From: Panacagrimonas perspica
Lineage (GTDB): Bacteria > Pseudomonadota > Gammaproteobacteria > Nevskiales > Nevskiaceae
NCBI RefSeq assembly: GCF_004364935.1
Contig: NZ_SOBT01000010.1
Span: forward strand, 186,001-250,000
DNA length: 64,000 bases
Direction: 5' to 3'
In this document: positions 56,266-63,553 of the stretch, piece after piece
Position numbering within the stretch: position 1 is the first letter of the stretch
How the letters are laid out: each line of letters starts with the position of its first letter
Position numbers and translations under genes: made by a program
The notes under the pieces: model-generated
Told to the model about the DNA's origin: nothing
Databases searched by the model: none
Seen by the model: only the letters and a program-made list of their open reading frames with translations

Positions 56266-56877
56266 TCAGGCGGTGGCTGGTACCTGCGGCAGCGCAACGC
56301 CGATCAGCACGTTCTTCGAGATCAGCGACGCGAGCTTTTCTTCGCTCCAGCCCTCGGTACCGGCCGGTCGCACCGGCAGCACCAGGAAGCGCGTCTCGGC
56401 CGTGGTGTCGACGACGCGAATCTCGACCGACTCCGGAAGATCCAGCCCCATCTCGCGCAACAGGCTGCGCGATTCGCGCACGACGCGCGAGCGGTACTCG
56501 AAGCTCTTGTACCAGTCGGGCGGCAGACCCAGGATCGGCCACGCCGTGCACGAGCACAGCGTGCAGACGATGACGTGATGCAAAGTCGGCGTGTCCACCA
56601 GCGCCGCCATGTATTCACCCTGGGGGCCGTGATAGCCCAGTTCCGCGCAGGCCGACGTGGCGTCCTTGAGCAGGCGCTCGCGGAACGCCGGATCGGTCCA
56701 GGCCTTGGCGACGACGTGCGCGCCGTTCTGCGGCTTCCAGTCGTTCTCCGCGACATGCGCGAAGTTCTCGATGTAGTCCTTGGGAATCAGGTTCTTCTCG
56801 TCCAGCGCGGCGCGCAACGCCTTGGCGCGCGCGGCCCTGGATGCCAGCGGGACCTGCGGTTCGTGGTGATCACTCAT
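56266..56877 (-). CDS. nthA: Nitrile hydratase alpha subunit, cobalt type
   Basis: 203 aa. The metal-binding claw is VCTLCSCTAWP (~residues 107-117): Thr in CTLCSC marks cobalt enzymes, where iron enzymes have Ser (CSLCSC). The N-terminal AHVAENDWKPQNGAHVVAKAWTDPAFRERLL and the end RPAGTEGWSEEKLASL are typical. The two outer Cys must be oxidised for activity. The beta-subunit gene precedes it by ~50 bp, the usual order of the cobalt type. No activator gene follows. Confidence 0.95.
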   Translation of the reverse strand: MSDHHEPQVPLASRAARAKALRAALDEKNLIPKDYIENFAHVAENDWKPQNGAHVVAKAWTDPAFRERLLKDATSACAELGYHGPQGEYMAALVDTPTLHHVIVCTLCSCTAWPILGLPPDWYKSFEYRSRVVRESRSLLREMGLDLPESVEIRVVDTTAETRFLVLPVRPAGTEGWSEEKLASLISKNVLIGVALPQVPATA

Positions 56878-56924
56878 GACTGTCTCCGGAATAAGGTTCG
56901 GGATGGCGCGGGTCGGGTCGGGGC

Positions 56925-57542
56925 TCAGACCTTTTCCAGGTAGCTTTCCCAGAGATCGACGACGACGGTGGAATTCTCGGCCGCGTCGCTCCACAAATCC
57001 TTGGCGTCGAACTTCACGTGATACGTCGGCTCGTGCTTGGCCTCGATGCCGTGACCCGCCGCGCTCGCGTACGGGAATCGCGGCGCCTGGTGCAGCACCA
57101 CGCCGCGCTTGCCGCGCACGTACTTGGGCATGCGGCTGTGGCCACGGAAATGATCCTTGCGCACCTGCACGGTCTCGCCCGGCGCGAACGAGATCGATGG
57201 CTCGCGAGCCGGTTCGCCCGGCGTGACCGGTCGCGCCAGCGGGAAGCGTCCGCCCGCACGCCGCTCCAGCTCCTCGTGCGTGACGTATCCCTTCTCGACG
57301 AACAGCGCGGCCACACCGGTGACGATGCGCTCGTAATACGTGGAGGTCAGATAGTGACGCGGCTCCATGCGCTCGATGGCGTGGCGCAACTCGTCGATCG
57401 TGAAGGCATTGAGGTCGGCCGCCCCGACGAAGATCAGCGCATAGCCGATCGGCTCCCAGTCTTCGTGGAATACCGGCTCGTTGGATTCGAGCTCCACCGC
57501 GCCGAAGCCGTTGACACCACCCAGATCATGTACGCCGTCCAT
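56925..57542 (-). CDS. nthB: Nitrile hydratase beta subunit
   Basis: 205 aa, slightly short for the family (about 220-230). It starts MDGVHDLGGVNGFGAVELE, the beta-subunit signature, followed by RHAIERMEPRHYLTSTYYERIVTGVAALFVEKG and the SH3-like C-terminal barrel (VQVRKDHFRGHSRMPKYVRGKRGVV, STVVVDLWESYLE). With the alpha subunit it hydrates nitriles to amides in the cytoplasm. It is the first gene of the pair, divergent from the riboswitch-controlled operon. Confidence 0.95.
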   Translation of the reverse strand: MDGVHDLGGVNGFGAVELESNEPVFHEDWEPIGYALIFVGAADLNAFTIDELRHAIERMEPRHYLTSTYYERIVTGVAALFVEKGYVTHEELERRAGGRFPLARPVTPGEPAREPSISFAPGETVQVRKDHFRGHSRMPKYVRGKRGVVLHQAPRFPYASAAGHGIEAKHEPTYHVKFDAKDLWSDAAENSTVVVDLWESYLEKV

Positions 57543-57749
57543 CGCCTCTCTCCTGTGCCTGCGCGGACGGGAAGGTCGCCGCGCAACGGGCCGGTTCCGA
57601 ACACCGTCACCCTTCCCCAAGCCTAAACACCCGGAGTGCGGATGCCATGCGGGTGATCCCCTACAGGGGAGGTCTCTGCGCGCCTGCGTTCTGTTCAACG
57701 TCGCCAGCGCACGCTCCCCCGCCGCGATCGAACGAGCCTACAATCGCGA
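57543..57749. other. Divergent intergenic region before the riboswitch
   Basis: About 200 bp that should hold promoters for nthB (minus) and for the cobalamin-controlled operon (plus). A short TCCCC/GGGGA inverted pair lies near 57655-57670. I cannot point to a clear -35/-10 set. Confidence 0.4.
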
Positions 57750-57915
57750 ACGTAGGTGTCCTTCGGCGATCCGCCGGGGGATGAAACGGGAAGCCGGTGC
57801 AATTCCGGCGCTGCCCCCGCAACGGTAACTGGTGTGGTTTCGCACACGGCCACTGTCGATCCAATCGACGGGAAGGCGCGAAACCCGATGCCAGGAGTCC
57901 GGAGACCGGCCTGCA
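57750..57915 (+). ncRNA. Cobalamin riboswitch
   Basis: The conserved B12-box AAGCCGGTGCAATTCCGGCG continues into CTGCCCCCGCAACGGTAA (57791-57828). The 5' part GTGTCC...GGGGGATGAAACGGGAA (57754-57792) and the 3' core GGAGTCCGGAGACCGGCCT (57894-57912) are also typical. It senses adenosylcobalamin or a related corrinoid and lowers expression of the downstream receptor when the ligand is plentiful. A strong SD-like AAAGGAG follows directly at 57915-57921. Confidence 0.95.
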
Positions 57916-57928
57916 AAGGAGTTGTGTG

Positions 57929-57980
57929 CCGTGGTCGCGGAGGGCGAACCAGCGGGTGGCCAAAGCCACGCCGACCACGG
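57929..57980 (+). promoter_or_regulatory. Nested hairpin, candidate riboswitch expression platform
   Basis: An outer stem CCGTGGTCG (57929-57937) with CGACCACGG (57972-57980) encloses an inner GTGGC-CAAA-GCCAC hairpin (57956-57969). It lies between the aptamer and the likely GTG start at 58010. No long T-tract follows, so translational control is more likely than termination. Confidence 0.55.
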
Positions 57981-58009
57981 TTGTCCGTCGATTTTCACAG
58001 GGATCTTCC

Positions 58010-59953
58010 GTGCCGGTTCACGTCTCGCGGCGTTCCGCGACCCTCCTCGGCTTCGTGTTCGCCGGCGCGGTCGCGTCGCCCGCCCTCGTGCGCGGCGAGG
58101 ACACGGCGCCCGTGCAACAGCAGGAACCGGTTCTCGACACGATCGTCGTCGAAGGCGTTCGCGCCAAGGTCGAGGGCGCCGGCGTTGTGCTCACGGTGCC
58201 GGTCGATCCGCTCGAGGCCACCGACCTCGCCGATCTGCTGTCCACACTGCCCGGTGTGCAGGTCCGATCCTCCGGCGGCCTGGGCAGCTACAGCGAGGCC
58301 AGCCTGCGCGGCAGCAGCGGGCGACAGGTGCGGATCCTGCTCGACGGGCTCCCGCTGGATGTCGGCGGCGGAGAAGCGACATCGCTGTCGCTGGTCAATC
58401 CGCTGCTGCTCGAGGAAGTGAAGGTCTACCAGGGACGCGTGCCGGTGAGCCTGGGCAGCGGCCTGGCCGGCAGCATCGATCTGCGCACGCGCCGCCAGCT
58501 CGCCGAACCGCTGGTGGGCACGCTGGGACTCGGCACGCTGGGCGAGCGGCAGGCGAGCGCGGGCGCGCAGTTGAGCGAGGACGTGCAACTGCTCGGCGGC
58601 TACCAGCATGCCGACAACGACTTTCGCTACGCGAATGCCTTCAAGCCTTTCGATCCGGACGATCCGGAACGCAAGGACAAGGAGAAACGTCGCAACGCCG
58701 GCACCGAGCAGACCTACGGCCTGTTGCGGTATCACGGCCCGCTGGTGTTCACGCTGCACGGCGTCGACGACGAACAGGAACTGCCGACGCGCCTGAACCG
58801 CGACACCACCCGCACCGAACTGCGCACGCGCTCGCTCGGCGCCTCGGTGACGACTCCCGCGGAATCCGCGTGGCAGGCGTCGCTGAGCCATCGCTATACC
58901 GCCGAGCGCTACCGCGATCCGGACAGCGAACTGGGCCTCGGTGGCGCGCAGGACACGCGCCAGCAATCGCGCGCCACGCGATTGGCCGTCGGCCACGACG
59001 TGGGTCCGGCGTTCGATCAGCTCCGGATCGAGCACCAGGAATTCCGCACGCGTGACGCCATCGGCGATACATCCGGACCTTCGGCACGACGCCTGTCGAT
59101 CGGCAACGGCATCGAGACCGGATGGGGCTCGCTGTGGCGCTTCGACGCGAGCCTCAACGCGGCGTGGTCGAATGACGAATCCCAGACGCAGGAAGACAAG
59201 TACTGGCAGGTGGAACCCGCGCTGGGCCTGACCCGTGCCGTCGGCGTCTGCATCGCCGCCGCCAACGTCGGCCATCGCAAGCGCCTGCCGACCTTCTTCG
59301 AACGCTACGGCGACCGCGGCCTGTTCAGAGGCAATCCGACGCTGGATCCGGAACGCTCCGCCTACGCCGACGCCGGCGCCCGCTGTGCGATGGAGAGCTG
59401 GGTGCGGCACGCGCAGCTCACGGTGTTCGGCCAGGACCTGCGCGACGCCATCAGCCCCACGTTCACGGCACAGGGCGTCGGCCGTTCGATCAATACCGAC
59501 AAGGCCGAGATCTTCGGCGTCGAGATGGCGGTGGGCGGCGGCGCAGAGGCCTGGTCCTGGGACCTCTCGGGCACCTGGCAACACACCGAAGATCGAAGCG
59601 ACACCCGGGCGACGCGCGGCAACGCGCTACCCGGCCGTTTCGAGAACCAGCTCAATGCGCGCCTCGAACGCCGTCTCGCGGGACTGACGTTCTTCTATGC
59701 CTTCCGCTTCGAGTCGGGCCAGTACTACGACAGCGCCCAGCTGCTTCGGGCCGACGTCATGCGCCGTCACGACGTCGGCGTGCGCGGCGCCCTCCGCCGT
59801 CTGGGCTGGAGCCTGCAGTGGCTCAACGTCGGCGACGACAACTTCGAACAGTTCAACGGCTTTCCGACACCGGGCGAACGCGTCCGGTTTTCTCTCACGT
59901 GGCCGGAGACGCGCCGGCCCGCATCGATCCCTGACTCAAGGAGCACTCCATGA
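58010..59953 (+). CDS. BtuB-like TonB-dependent cobalamin/corrinoid receptor
   Basis: 647 aa from GTG 58010 (AGGGA upstream), which gives a good signal peptide (VSRRSATLLGFVFAGAVASPALVRG). An in-frame GTG at 57926 right after AAAGGAG would add 28 residues. A TonB-box-like DTIVVEG precedes the plug (DLLSTLPGVQVRSSGGLG, SLRGSSGRQVRILLDGLPLD). The rest is a 22-strand-type barrel ending near VRFSLTW plus a tail of ~15 residues. The riboswitch upstream and the plug pattern support corrinoid uptake; BtuB of E. coli is 614 aa. The stop overlaps the next ATG (ATGA). Confidence 0.88.
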   Translation: MPVHVSRRSATLLGFVFAGAVASPALVRGEDTAPVQQQEPVLDTIVVEGVRAKVEGAGVVLTVPVDPLEATDLADLLSTLPGVQVRSSGGLGSYSEASLRGSSGRQVRILLDGLPLDVGGGEATSLSLVNPLLLEEVKVYQGRVPVSLGSGLAGSIDLRTRRQLAEPLVGTLGLGTLGERQASAGAQLSEDVQLLGGYQHADNDFRYANAFKPFDPDDPERKDKEKRRNAGTEQTYGLLRYHGPLVFTLHGVDDEQELPTRLNRDTTRTELRTRSLGASVTTPAESAWQASLSHRYTAERYRDPDSELGLGGAQDTRQQSRATRLAVGHDVGPAFDQLRIEHQEFRTRDAIGDTSGPSARRLSIGNGIETGWGSLWRFDASLNAAWSNDESQTQEDKYWQVEPALGLTRAVGVCIAAANVGHRKRLPTFFERYGDRGLFRGNPTLDPERSAYADAGARCAMESWVRHAQLTVFGQDLRDAISPTFTAQGVGRSINTDKAEIFGVEMAVGGGAEAWSWDLSGTWQHTEDRSDTRATRGNALPGRFENQLNARLERRLAGLTFFYAFRFESGQYYDSAQLLRADVMRRHDVGVRGALRRLGWSLQWLNVGDDNFEQFNGFPTPGERVRFSLTWPETRRPASIPDSRSTP

Positions 59954-61131
59954 AAAAACTGATCCCACTGGCCATCCTCGCCCTGACGCTGTCCGCTTGC
60001 GGCGGCGGCGGTAATGGCGGCGGCGATTCCGGACCGCTGAGCGCCGACGTGGCCGTCATCGCTGCGCGCGCACCGGACTACTCGTCCGGCGCGATTTCGC
60101 TGGTGAACACGGATGCTCCCTACGCGGGGCAGAACAATCTCAACGCATCGACGTCCGACATCTCGGTTCGCAGCGGCGGCGACCACTACTTCCGCCTCGA
60201 GAAGTTCGACACCAACCAGATCTCGCGCTACGAGGCCGCGACGCCCGGCGCCGCGACGTGGACCTACTCCACGCAGGACGCAACCGACACCGGCGACAGC
60301 AATCCCTACGATCTGATCATCGCCAGTCCGACCAAGGCCTATCTGCTGCGCTACGGCTCCGCGAAGATGTGGATCGTCAATCCGTCCGCGACGACCGAAG
60401 CCGCCTTCAAGACCGGCGAGATCGACCTGTCGGGCTATGACACGTTCGACGGCATTCCTGAAATGGCGGGCGGCATCATCCGCGGCGGCCGCCTGTACGT
60501 GGTGATGCAGCGTCTCGAGAACTTCAGCGCCACCAAGACCGGCTATGTCGCCGTGTTCGACGTGGCCACCGACGCCGAGATCACGACCGGCGCCGCCGGC
60601 GCCGCGCTCAAGGGCGTGGAATTGACGGTTCGCAACCCCGCCAATATCGCAGCCACGCCGGACGGCGACCTGCTGGTGTTCGCCACCGGCGCCTACAACT
60701 CCACGACCTTCGCGCCGCTCTACGACGGCGGCATCGAGCGCATCGACAGCACCACGTTCGCCAAGACGCTGATCCTGGACGACGGCACGCCCGCGGCGCA
60801 TCCCTATGGCCAGATCACCAATATGGCGATCGTCGACAACGGCCGCGGCTACTTCATCGGCAGCACCGGTTTTGCGGGCAACCAGACGGTGTACCGCTTC
60901 AACCCGGGCGCCGCCTCGACGCCGGTCGCCGTCACCGGTCTCACGGCCGGCCTGTACGGCGCGCTTGCCGTCTCGCCCAGCGGACAGCTCTTCGTCGGCC
61001 TCGACAACAGCGCGGCACCGGGCGTGGCCATCGCCGGCTTCTCGGGCGGCACGGAGACGATCATCACGCCCCGTGTCGACACGGTGCTGACGCCGATCAA
61101 CATCGACTTCGTCGTCGTCGACGCGCAGTAA
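59950..61131 (+). CDS. Lipoprotein, probable beta-propeller, partner of the BtuB-like receptor
   Basis: 393 aa. The signal peptide ends in lipobox LTLSAC (Cys ~17) followed by a Gly-rich linker (GGGGNGGG), so it is lipidated and probably at the outer membrane. The mature part has repeated units such as NIAATPDGDLLVFATG, NMAIVDNGRGYFIGS and GALAVSPSGQLFVGLDN, a pattern of beta-propeller blades (YncE-like). The ATG overlaps the receptor stop, so the two are made together under the cobalamin riboswitch. The layout recalls BtuG of Bacteroidetes, a B12-binding propeller lipoprotein next to BtuB. B12 binding is an inference. Confidence 0.85.
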   Translation: MKKLIPLAILALTLSACGGGGNGGGDSGPLSADVAVIAARAPDYSSGAISLVNTDAPYAGQNNLNASTSDISVRSGGDHYFRLEKFDTNQISRYEAATPGAATWTYSTQDATDTGDSNPYDLIIASPTKAYLLRYGSAKMWIVNPSATTEAAFKTGEIDLSGYDTFDGIPEMAGGIIRGGRLYVVMQRLENFSATKTGYVAVFDVATDAEITTGAAGAALKGVELTVRNPANIAATPDGDLLVFATGAYNSTTFAPLYDGGIERIDSTTFAKTLILDDGTPAAHPYGQITNMAIVDNGRGYFIGSTGFAGNQTVYRFNPGAASTPVAVTGLTAGLYGALAVSPSGQLFVGLDNSAAPGVAIAGFSGGTETIITPRVDTVLTPINIDFVVVDAQ

Positions 61132-61140
61132 GCGGGACAC

Positions 61141-61178
61141 AGAAAACGGAAAAGCCCGCGAGCGACCCGGCTCGCGGG
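61141..61178. terminator. Hairpin after the lipoprotein gene, with T-tract on the minus strand
   Basis: CCCGCGAGC (61155-61163) pairs with GCTCGCGGG (61170-61178), 24 bp after the stop. Read on the minus strand it is followed by CTTTTCCGTTTTCT, so it should also stop transcripts coming from yicC. Confidence 0.7.
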
Positions 61179-61370
61179 TCCTGTCCGTCGCCCGAGACCG
61201 CCCAACGCCCGCTCATCCCGAATCGCGCCACCGCAGCCTCATCGCGGTGGCGCTATTCGTGGGTCGCATCGCCCTCGCCGGCGAATGCAGGCGAGCCACC
61301 GCTGCACATCGTCGTCATCGAACGGCCCGCTACCATGCGAGTCGACGGGGTCAGAATCGACGGACGATCA

Positions 61371-62947: not shown

Positions 62948-63475
62948 TCAGGTCGAGCTGGAGCCCGACTCGGACGAGGCCGGTGCCGGATCCGCCGCGG
63001 GCGTCATGGCTTCGGCAACCGCAGCCGGAAGCGGCAGCGAGTCGACGACCTTCTTCGCCGCAGCCTTGGCACGCTTCACCAGGCTCTTGGCGGTGGTCGC
63101 CACCTGGGTCTGCGCCTTGGCCACCGACTTCTTGGCCTTGGCGACGGACTTCTTGGCGGAGGTCTTGGCCTTCGACTGGGCGGCGCCGACCGACTTCTTC
63201 GCCTTGGCAACCGAACTCTTGGCAGACTTCTTCGCCTTGGCGACGGAGCCCTTTGCGGACTTCTTCACCTTGGCTACGGATTTCTTCGCCTTGCTCACGG
63301 TCTTCTTGACCGCGGCCTTGGCCTTGGCCTTCACCGCACGAGCCGGCTTCTTCGCTGCAACCTTCTTCCCCGACTTCTTCGCTGCGGACTTCTTCGCCGC
63401 AGGCTTCTTGGCAGCGACCTTCTTGGTCGCAGCCTTCTTGCCTGCTTTCTTTTTCGCTTTGGATTTCACCGCCAT
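62948..63475 (-). CDS. Histone H1-like lysine/alanine-rich protein (AlgP/HctB type)
   Basis: 175 aa; more than a quarter Lys. After MAVKSKAKKKAGKK the sequence is built from repeats of the kind KKSVAKAK, KKSAKGSVAK and AAKK (residues ~5-140), then a Ser/Pro/acidic tail (PLPAAVAEAMTPAADPAPASS). It resembles the eukaryotic H1 C-terminal domain and bacterial AlgP/AlgR3, which bind DNA. It is expected to compact or regulate DNA. The ATG at 63475 has AGGG upstream; a promoter is at 63554-63581. Repeat number likely varies between strains. Confidence 0.88.
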   Translation of the reverse strand: MAVKSKAKKKAGKKAATKKVAAKKPAAKKSAAKKSGKKVAAKKPARAVKAKAKAAVKKTVSKAKKSVAKVKKSAKGSVAKAKKSAKSSVAKAKKSVGAAQSKAKTSAKKSVAKAKKSVAKAQTQVATTAKSLVKRAKAAAKKVVDSLPLPAAVAEAMTPAADPAPASSESGSSST

Positions 63476-63553
63476 TTCCCTAGCCTCCACTGAAAATGCC
63501 ACACCTGCCCCATAGAAATTTCGTCGAAGAAAACATGCTCTTCGCGCTTCTGG

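Follow-up and report, generated by a model that had tools for sequence, protein, structure and literature searches.

A cobalamin riboswitch-linked BtuB-like receptor and its candidate BtuG-like propeller lipoprotein in Panacagrimonas perspica and other bacteria outside the Bacteroidetes

Results

Organization of the cobalamin riboswitch locus

The locus described here is located in a 64,000-nt stretch of the Panacagrimonas perspica genome (contig NZ_SOBT01000010.1, positions 186,001 to 250,000 of the forward strand; hereafter the window), and it comprises a cobalamin riboswitch, a gene for a BtuB-like TonB-dependent receptor and a gene for a lipoprotein with a predicted beta-propeller fold. 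The following features were assigned (window coordinates; ORF, open reading frame; pLDDT, predicted local distance difference test).

57737..57928, plus strand: cobalamin riboswitch aptamer RF00174 (cmscan, 119.5 bits; gathering score 31.5)
58010..59953, plus strand: BtuB-like TonB-dependent receptor, ORF from GTG, start uncertain (plug domain, PDB matches, model)
59950..61131, plus strand: lipoprotein, predicted beta-propeller with BtuG-like fold, ORF of 393 aa (AlphaFold2, Foldseek, VIA)
59998..60000, plus strand: codon of the predicted lipid-modified Cys17, LSAC lipobox (translation)
60001..60024, plus strand: glycine-rich linker GGGGNGGG after the lipid Cys (translation; pLDDT below 50 in model residues 1-8, counted from Cys17)
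61154..61179, plus strand: GC-rich hairpin about 20 bases 3' of the lipoprotein stop (fold of 61128-61215)

The riboswitch match covers model positions 1-189 of 189 (E 2.1e-29), a full-length aptamer, and no second RF00174 match turned up in the genome, for which 150 of 326 first-look candidates were scored. The receptor frame, which matches the TonB plug domain (E 9.6e-15), extends 5' of the GTG chosen as its start (58010), and its TGA (59951-59953) is overlapped by the ATG of the lipoprotein gene (59950-59952). The signal peptide of the lipoprotein ends in the LSAC lipobox, with Cys17 as the predicted lipidation site and the glycine-rich linker directly behind it. An earlier note on this DNA had described a full cobalamin riboswitch, a TonB-dependent receptor gene, the start-stop overlap and the long glycine linker; each was recovered, the riboswitch beginning 13 bases before position 57750, where the note had started. 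It had also claimed that no periplasmic binding protein or ATP-binding cassette (ABC) transporter gene for vitamin B12 is adjacent, and none was found beside the lipoprotein gene in the window.

When the segment 61128-61215 was folded, an energy of -38.9 kcal/mol was obtained (z -3.04), which was reached by none of 200 shuffles; the segment has no clear T-run. The hairpin at 61154-61179 is likely the end of the transcript and, given its strength and its place behind the lipoprotein gene, a two-gene transcript is the simplest reading. The stability of the stretch between riboswitch and receptor (57915-58025) was not unusual (z -0.40).

Predicted fold of the lipoprotein

No family was found for the lipoprotein in Pfam and NCBIfam, where only sub-threshold lipoprotein-signal matches were obtained, and a direct sequence search of the PDB gave no match. 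The AlphaFold2 model, built with 72 sequences (that of the window and 71 relatives), is a propeller (pLDDT 94.1; predicted template modelling score 0.92) that would have seven blades by our own assignment from the strand list and the fold of a BtuG-type propeller. When this model was compared with the PDB by Foldseek, 1366 matches were found at E ≤ 10; rows 1-16 were all BtuG of Bacteroides (BtuG1, BtuG2, BtuG3 and 3DSM), and rows 17-21 were XusB, another propeller lid. VIA-align gave Z 31.5-34.0 against BtuG, with a root-mean-square deviation of 2.6-3.3 over 308-321 residues at 14-16% identity (8bmz_A: Z 34.0, 2.8 over 318 residues). As BtuG stands at the top of both comparisons, the predicted fold is BtuG-like, although generic propellers score nearly as well. 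Propeller-like blades had been claimed in the earlier note, which proposed structure prediction as a check; the predicted structure agrees with that claim. The mature lipoprotein is strongly acidic, with a net charge of -17 by residue count (20 K/R vs 37 D/E), and the charge is equal on the two propeller faces (median -11 and -11). A net charge of -18 is given for BtuG2 (PMC10404256).

Profiles of the lipoprotein matched propellers of every kind in the PDB, all weakly. BtuG was reached at E 0.0019-0.019 in one search and 0.0082-0.028 in the other; two-component propellers outranked it in both and 1l0q in the latter. Since BtuG ranks behind other propellers, these matches are no proof of homology. 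The BtuG domain DUF5074 was detected in 4 of the 72 family members at E ≤ 0.01 (best 4e-6), and the relative in genome G202 scored 25.6 bits, below the cut-off. In a scan of the window's genome, a different ORF passed the DUF5074 cut-off (28.9 bits) and the lipoprotein was not listed. DUF5074 was rejected as a family marker: it also detects other propellers in this class, with matches passing the cut-off in 8 of 185 genomes.

Distribution and pairing across genomes

With the window lipoprotein as query (E ≤ 0.001), matches were found in 14 of 58 genomes of its family and 24 of 369 genomes of its class. A lipoprotein profile was found in 12 of the 58 and, at E ≤ 1e-10, in 22 of the 369; the weak single-sequence matches in G001 and G055 vanished with it. 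A set of 77 loci (L074-L150) was then defined by one conserved lipoprotein peptide, a selection that is uninformative on lipoproteins without this peptide. As the loci were picked by lipoprotein sequence alone, linkage to a receptor or a riboswitch was not built in. They belong to Gammaproteobacteria, to Desulfobacterales and further records that carry "Deltaproteobacteria" in their titles, and to one member of the Bdellovibrionales. The gammaproteobacterial carriers include Nevskia, Solimonas, Sinimarinibacterium, Panacagrimonas, Polycyclovorans and Algiphilus, as well as Granulosicoccaceae, Alcanivorax, Saccharospirillum, Thalassolituus and others. Sinimarinibacterium flocculans and Solimonas terrae are two cultured species with the pair.

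A receptor gene adjoins the lipoprotein gene in 75 of the 77 loci. In 72 it lies directly upstream, at a distance of no more than 30 nt in 40 loci and no more than 200 nt in 66; in one (L110) it lies directly downstream, and in two (L088 and L100) the genes are convergent. The two loci without an adjacent receptor, L112 and L143, start at a contig end. Riboswitches were paired to these loci by coordinates, and in 48 of the 50 loci tested RF00174 immediately precedes the receptor gene or, at L088, the lipoprotein gene; L109 starts at a contig end and L124 has none. In another set, L040-L071, partly from the same organisms, 28 of 32 loci have RF00174 upstream and on the same strand as the receptor (13 of 15 and 13 of 13 in two batches, plus L068 and L070 in a third batch of 6 that included L044 and L053 again), and the misses (L044, L053, L069 and L071) have too little upstream contig or are a gene fragment. 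The earlier note had suggested a search for the same pair behind cobalamin riboswitches elsewhere and had held that a lipoprotein found mostly away from cobalamin genes would speak against its proposal; the relatives sit behind cobalamin riboswitches instead.

The pairing was also seen from the receptor side. Among the 369 class genomes, 21 carry a receptor at E ≤ 1e-80 with a profile of the partnered receptors (those encoded beside the lipoprotein), and in 21 of 21 the lipoprotein is adjacent by coordinates; only G403 has a lipoprotein (E 1.9e-12) without such a receptor. The co-occurrence has a Fisher p of 2.5e-33, although related genomes are not independent. Scoring in these class scans was limited to the top 3 or top 5 candidates of each genome, and the threshold was chosen after the scores had been seen to leave a gap between partnered receptors, at 516-913 bits, and solo ones, at 140-196 bits, so that more distant partnerless receptors of the lineage could be missed. 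In the family genomes, a cobalamin riboswitch is present in 55 of 58 and the lipoprotein in 12 of 58. Inspection of 19 riboswitches without the lipoprotein (16 from genomes lacking it and 3 second riboswitches in carrier genomes) revealed that 18 precede a receptor of another lineage; none was found at L188.

Several individual loci may be recorded. At L088:6537-11005 and L100:901-5124, the convergent propeller and receptor genes each have their own cobalamin riboswitch and do not form one operon. At L072:3771-9864 (G403), a divergent propeller homologue (E 6.5e-14) lies behind a TonB receptor and is followed by DUF3450 and two MotA/ExbB genes, with no cobalamin riboswitch; this is perhaps the same partnership for another ligand. 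The homologue at L131:6092-8095 is a 668-aa open frame (chosen start), much longer than most relatives, and the genome of L135 (G467, Desulfonema magnum) has ten cobalamin riboswitch matches. A 1072-aa frame in G038 was considered as a receptor-lipoprotein fusion and rejected, the open frame merely overlapping a separate receptor gene.

Identity and lineage of the receptor

When the window receptor was searched against the PDB with phmmer, nine sequences were matched: XusA (9gbc) came first (5e-11), followed by six of Escherichia coli BtuB (from 7.5e-11) and two from 8p97/8p98 (Bacteroides). For the AlphaFold2 model of the receptor (pLDDT 88.5), the Foldseek ranking by E-value was headed by E. 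coli BtuB, and BtuB1 from its complex with BtuG1 came third (TM-scores 0.75 and 0.78). The plug and barrel are thus closest to B12 receptors, with XusA as the one other receptor equally close. Against the NCBIfam equivalog for TonB-dependent B12 receptors (TIGR01779), the receptor scored 73 bits, below the cut-off of 599.7.

Partnered receptors (30 of 59 used) and solo receptors (18) fell on opposite sides of one branch of the receptor tree (Shimodaira-Hasegawa-like approximate likelihood ratio test, 99). The partnered-receptor profile matched BtuB1 (8blw), BtuB3 (8p98/8p97), XusA (9gbc) and BtuB2 (8bmx, assigned to BtuB2 because it is 76% identical to BtuB3) at 202-167 bits, and E. coli BtuB at 151 bits, below these lid-bearing receptors. 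The solo-receptor profile gave 418 bits for E. coli BtuB, and matched none of BtuB1, BtuB2, BtuB3 and XusA at E ≤ 1e-30. When BtuB1-3, XusA and E. coli BtuB were included in a tree (20 of the 59 partnered rows), E. coli BtuB grouped with the solo receptors; relatives without the lipoprotein use the E. coli-type BtuB lineage. The Bacteroides rows lay on long branches between the partnered and solo groups, a position that is compatible with a common origin of the lid-bearing receptors and does not demonstrate it.

Corrinoid genes around the relatives

A same-strand ORF lies directly downstream in 35 of the 77 loci. From these regions, 83 of 97 downstream ORFs were scanned, the 14 omitted being contig-end, receptor or far-downstream ORFs. 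Matches comprised 13 BtuF-type proteins, 12 BtuC-type permeases, 10 ABC ATPases, 8 CobA, 5 CobU, 4 PduO-type adenosyltransferases, 4 CbiZ, 2 CobT-type proteins and 2 DUF4465 proteins. In the window's genome, the sole FecCD permease found is BtuC-like and lies on another contig, adjoined there by a BtuD/HmuV-like ATPase, and three proteins are above the cut-off for the B12-binding domain. In four loci (L104:4666-6690, L105:8495-10504, L135:8970-10949 and L146:10642-12624), a BtuF-type domain is fused to CbiZ, the adenosylcobinamide amidohydrolase, downstream of the propeller gene. Such a fusion would place corrinoid remodelling in the periplasm.

Membrane anchors of the lipoprotein family

A lipobox-like Cys (loose pattern) was found in all 52 gammaproteobacterial rows and in 2 of 15 Thermodesulfobacteriota rows. 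Several Thermodesulfobacteriota relatives instead have CFI at the C-terminus, or a hydrophobic stretch accompanied there by basic residues. The CFI box and the hydrophobic C-terminus with a basic tail are kinds of sorting signal on surface proteins. Of the 72 family members, 3 matched the NCBIfam model of the CFI-box sorting motif and 2 that of a choice-of-anchor domain, and a Calx-beta domain lies N-terminal to the propeller in 2. That the propeller is kept while the anchors change fits a cell-surface protein. The lipoprotein export signal of the Bacteroidetes, reported as MKWD in BtuG2 (PMC6143338), is absent from the window lipoprotein, in which GGGGNGGG follows Cys17.

Neighbouring genes

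The locus is flanked upstream by nitrile hydratase genes on the opposite strand and downstream by a yicC-type gene. The nitrile hydratase alpha and beta genes (56266-57698, minus strand) are divergent from the riboswitch operon, and the alpha chain contains CTLCSC, the motif of cobalt-type nitrile hydratases; with this motif, a cobalt enzyme may sit beside the cobalamin locus. Farther downstream (62948-63502, minus strand), a 184-aa protein rich in Lys/Ala repeats has a histone-H1-like look and no Pfam match at E 1e-5.

Discussion

A probable propeller lid for corrinoid uptake

The riboswitch, the gene order, the predicted fold, the pairing with one receptor lineage and the corrinoid gene context in relatives are directly supported, and together they make it probable that the locus is a cobalamin-repressed corrinoid-uptake operon with a BtuB-type receptor and a propeller lid. 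When cobalamin is scarce, the riboswitch would permit synthesis of the receptor and the lipoprotein from one message. The acidic propeller would be tethered to the outer membrane by its N-terminal lipid and flexible glycine linker, and would sit outside over the receptor as a lid. One propeller face may catch corrinoids and pass them to the receptor, through which TonB would drive them into the periplasm, and a BtuCD-type ABC transporter encoded elsewhere would complete the import.

The nearest known systems are the lids BtuG1, BtuG2 and BtuG3 (DUF5074, PF16819) of BtuB1, BtuB2 and BtuB3. They share with the window lipoprotein the propeller fold (they are its best PDB matches), a lipoprotein signal, a gene beside that of a BtuB-type receptor, a cobalamin riboswitch and a strongly acidic character. 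In contrast, identity is about 15%, the window lipoprotein has no DUF5074 match and GGGG after the Cys in place of the export signal, and its family occurs in other phyla, where C-terminal tails replace the lipobox in many Thermodesulfobacteriota relatives. XusB, the lid of XusA in Bacteroides, is likewise a propeller lipoprotein partner of a TonB receptor and the next-best fold match, and XusA ranks among the best matches of the window receptor; XusB differs in its ligand, xenosiderophore iron, and in lower fold scores. We know of no cobalamin riboswitch context for XusB. E. coli BtuB is a TonB-dependent B12 receptor under a cobalamin riboswitch and has high fold similarity to the window receptor, but it groups with the solo lineage and, to our knowledge, has no lipoprotein partner. 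Outside the Bacteroidota, TbpAB of Neisseria also employs a surface lipoprotein to assist a TonB-dependent receptor, but it takes iron from transferrin, and TbpB is not a propeller and uses Slam (surface lipoprotein translocator). Lipoprotein-assisted TonB receptors such as TbpAB are described as uncommon in Pseudomonadota (PMC12578637). BtuH and DUF4465 (BtuJ) are, as the propeller would be, accessory surface B12-binding proteins in riboswitch loci, and DUF4465 is present among the downstream ORFs noted above; DUF4465 is described as a beta-jellyroll, not a propeller (PMC13398666).

Alternative explanations

A number of results weigh against a BtuG-like lid. Generic propellers follow BtuG closely in VIA-align (best non-BtuG 1l0q, Z 30.7; another at 29.3), the window lipoprotein has no DUF5074 match up to E 10 and so is not a BtuG member by sequence, and with a sub-profile of the blades the match to BtuG (8okv) was no better than E 0.37, with 8puj, its identity unchecked, at 0.34. 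The loops of neither propeller face are better conserved than those of the other (permutation p 0.305; blades assigned from the DSSP string). In 42 of the 77 loci, as in the window, no same-strand ORF lies directly downstream by a simple rule, and the BtuCD-like genes of the window's genome had no visible BtuF next to them. As to the location, among the 54 relatives in which a lipobox was detected, 9 have Asp at position +2, a residue that in E. coli would favour the inner membrane. No Slam was found in the window's genome by a search that is a weak test (controls 0/14), and the search of the 58 family genomes gave one marginal match (G026).

The last of these results suit an arrangement in which the lipoprotein, held in the inner leaflet of the outer membrane, is exposed to the periplasm and picks up the corrinoid at the inside mouth of the receptor, replacing or feeding BtuF. 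In Pseudomonadota, lipoproteins of the outer membrane are mostly oriented towards the periplasm, as one source states (PMC12578637), and the failure to find Slam, or BtuF beside the BtuCD-like pair, and the Asp at +2 would fit this arrangement. However, BtuF-type proteins are encoded downstream in relatives (13 of the 83 scanned ORFs), where the job of periplasmic binder is therefore already filled. Thermodesulfobacteriota relatives mostly lack a lipobox and several carry CFI or C-terminal tails, a Calx-beta domain precedes the propeller in two relatives, and the fold is shared with BtuG and XusB, both of which are external lids. On this evidence we regard a periplasmic position as unlikely.

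The nature of the cargo and the presence of any ligand were also considered. In place of corrinoids, the pair might import cobalt, a cobalt complex of another kind or some other nutrient under riboswitch repression, given that cobalamin riboswitches also control cobalt uptake genes, that the neighbouring nitrile hydratase carries the cobalt-type motif CTLCSC and that XusA, a close PDB relative of the receptor, is a siderophore transporter. Such a cargo is very improbable, as the nearest solved relatives of the receptor are mostly B12 receptors, the BtuFCD, CobA, CobU, CbiZ, CobT-type and DUF4465 genes in relatives point to corrinoid salvage, and three proteins with the B12-binding domain are over the cut-off in the window's genome. 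Just as improbable is a lipoprotein that lacks a ligand and serves the receptor in its structure or assembly. The strict association with a single receptor lineage and the conservation spread evenly over both faces would suit such a scaffold, but the closest folds of known role, by their PDB titles, do bind ligands (BtuG corrinoids, XusB ferrichrome). The lipoprotein is most likely, by analogy, the corrinoid-catching lid of its receptor, BtuG-like in working and not BtuG by sequence. The proposal of the earlier note, a BtuG-like capture protein in a proteobacterium, is in this way supported by the BtuG-like predicted fold and by the relatives behind cobalamin riboswitches, and capture and hand-over would follow the scheme given above. 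The note had added that the origin was perhaps independent; the identity to BtuG of only about 15% may speak for this, but the partnered-receptor profile places the propeller-capped receptors of Bacteroides ahead of E. coli BtuB.

Significance

BtuG has been reported as exclusive to Bacteroidetes (PMC6143338), and lipoprotein-capped TonB transporters have been called seemingly exclusive to them (PMC10404256). A search confined to the open-access PMC library, and so not reaching subscription papers or preprints, gave no report in which a TonB receptor from outside the Bacteroidetes has a BtuG-like partner. The general idea has a forerunner in a 2026 paper on DUF4465 proteins, which widens B12 scavenging beyond Bacteroides: dedicated B12 scavenging is there stated not to be unique to B. 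theta, and DUF5074 propellers are placed near many DUF4465 genes (PMC13398666). The present data lean towards propeller-capped B12 uptake being a widespread class, present in Gammaproteobacteria, Desulfobacterota-type bacteria and Bdellovibrionales, and not a Bacteroidetes invention; one receptor lineage would be obligately paired with the propeller family, and the surface anchor (N-terminal lipid vs C-terminal sorting tail) would have been exchanged while the pairing was kept. This raises the question of the route by which the lipoprotein would get to the cell surface when it has no Bacteroidetes signal and no recognised Slam to rely on.

With a propeller partner linked to the riboswitch in other phyla, BtuG-type capture would be notably extended, and lid-assisted B12 uptake may be far wider spread than thought. 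If true, assisted B12 capture extends to free-living soil, marine and sulfate-reducing bacteria, an unannotated protein family gains a function, and the pair would offer a minimal two-gene system for testing the co-evolution of a surface lipoprotein with its TonB receptor.

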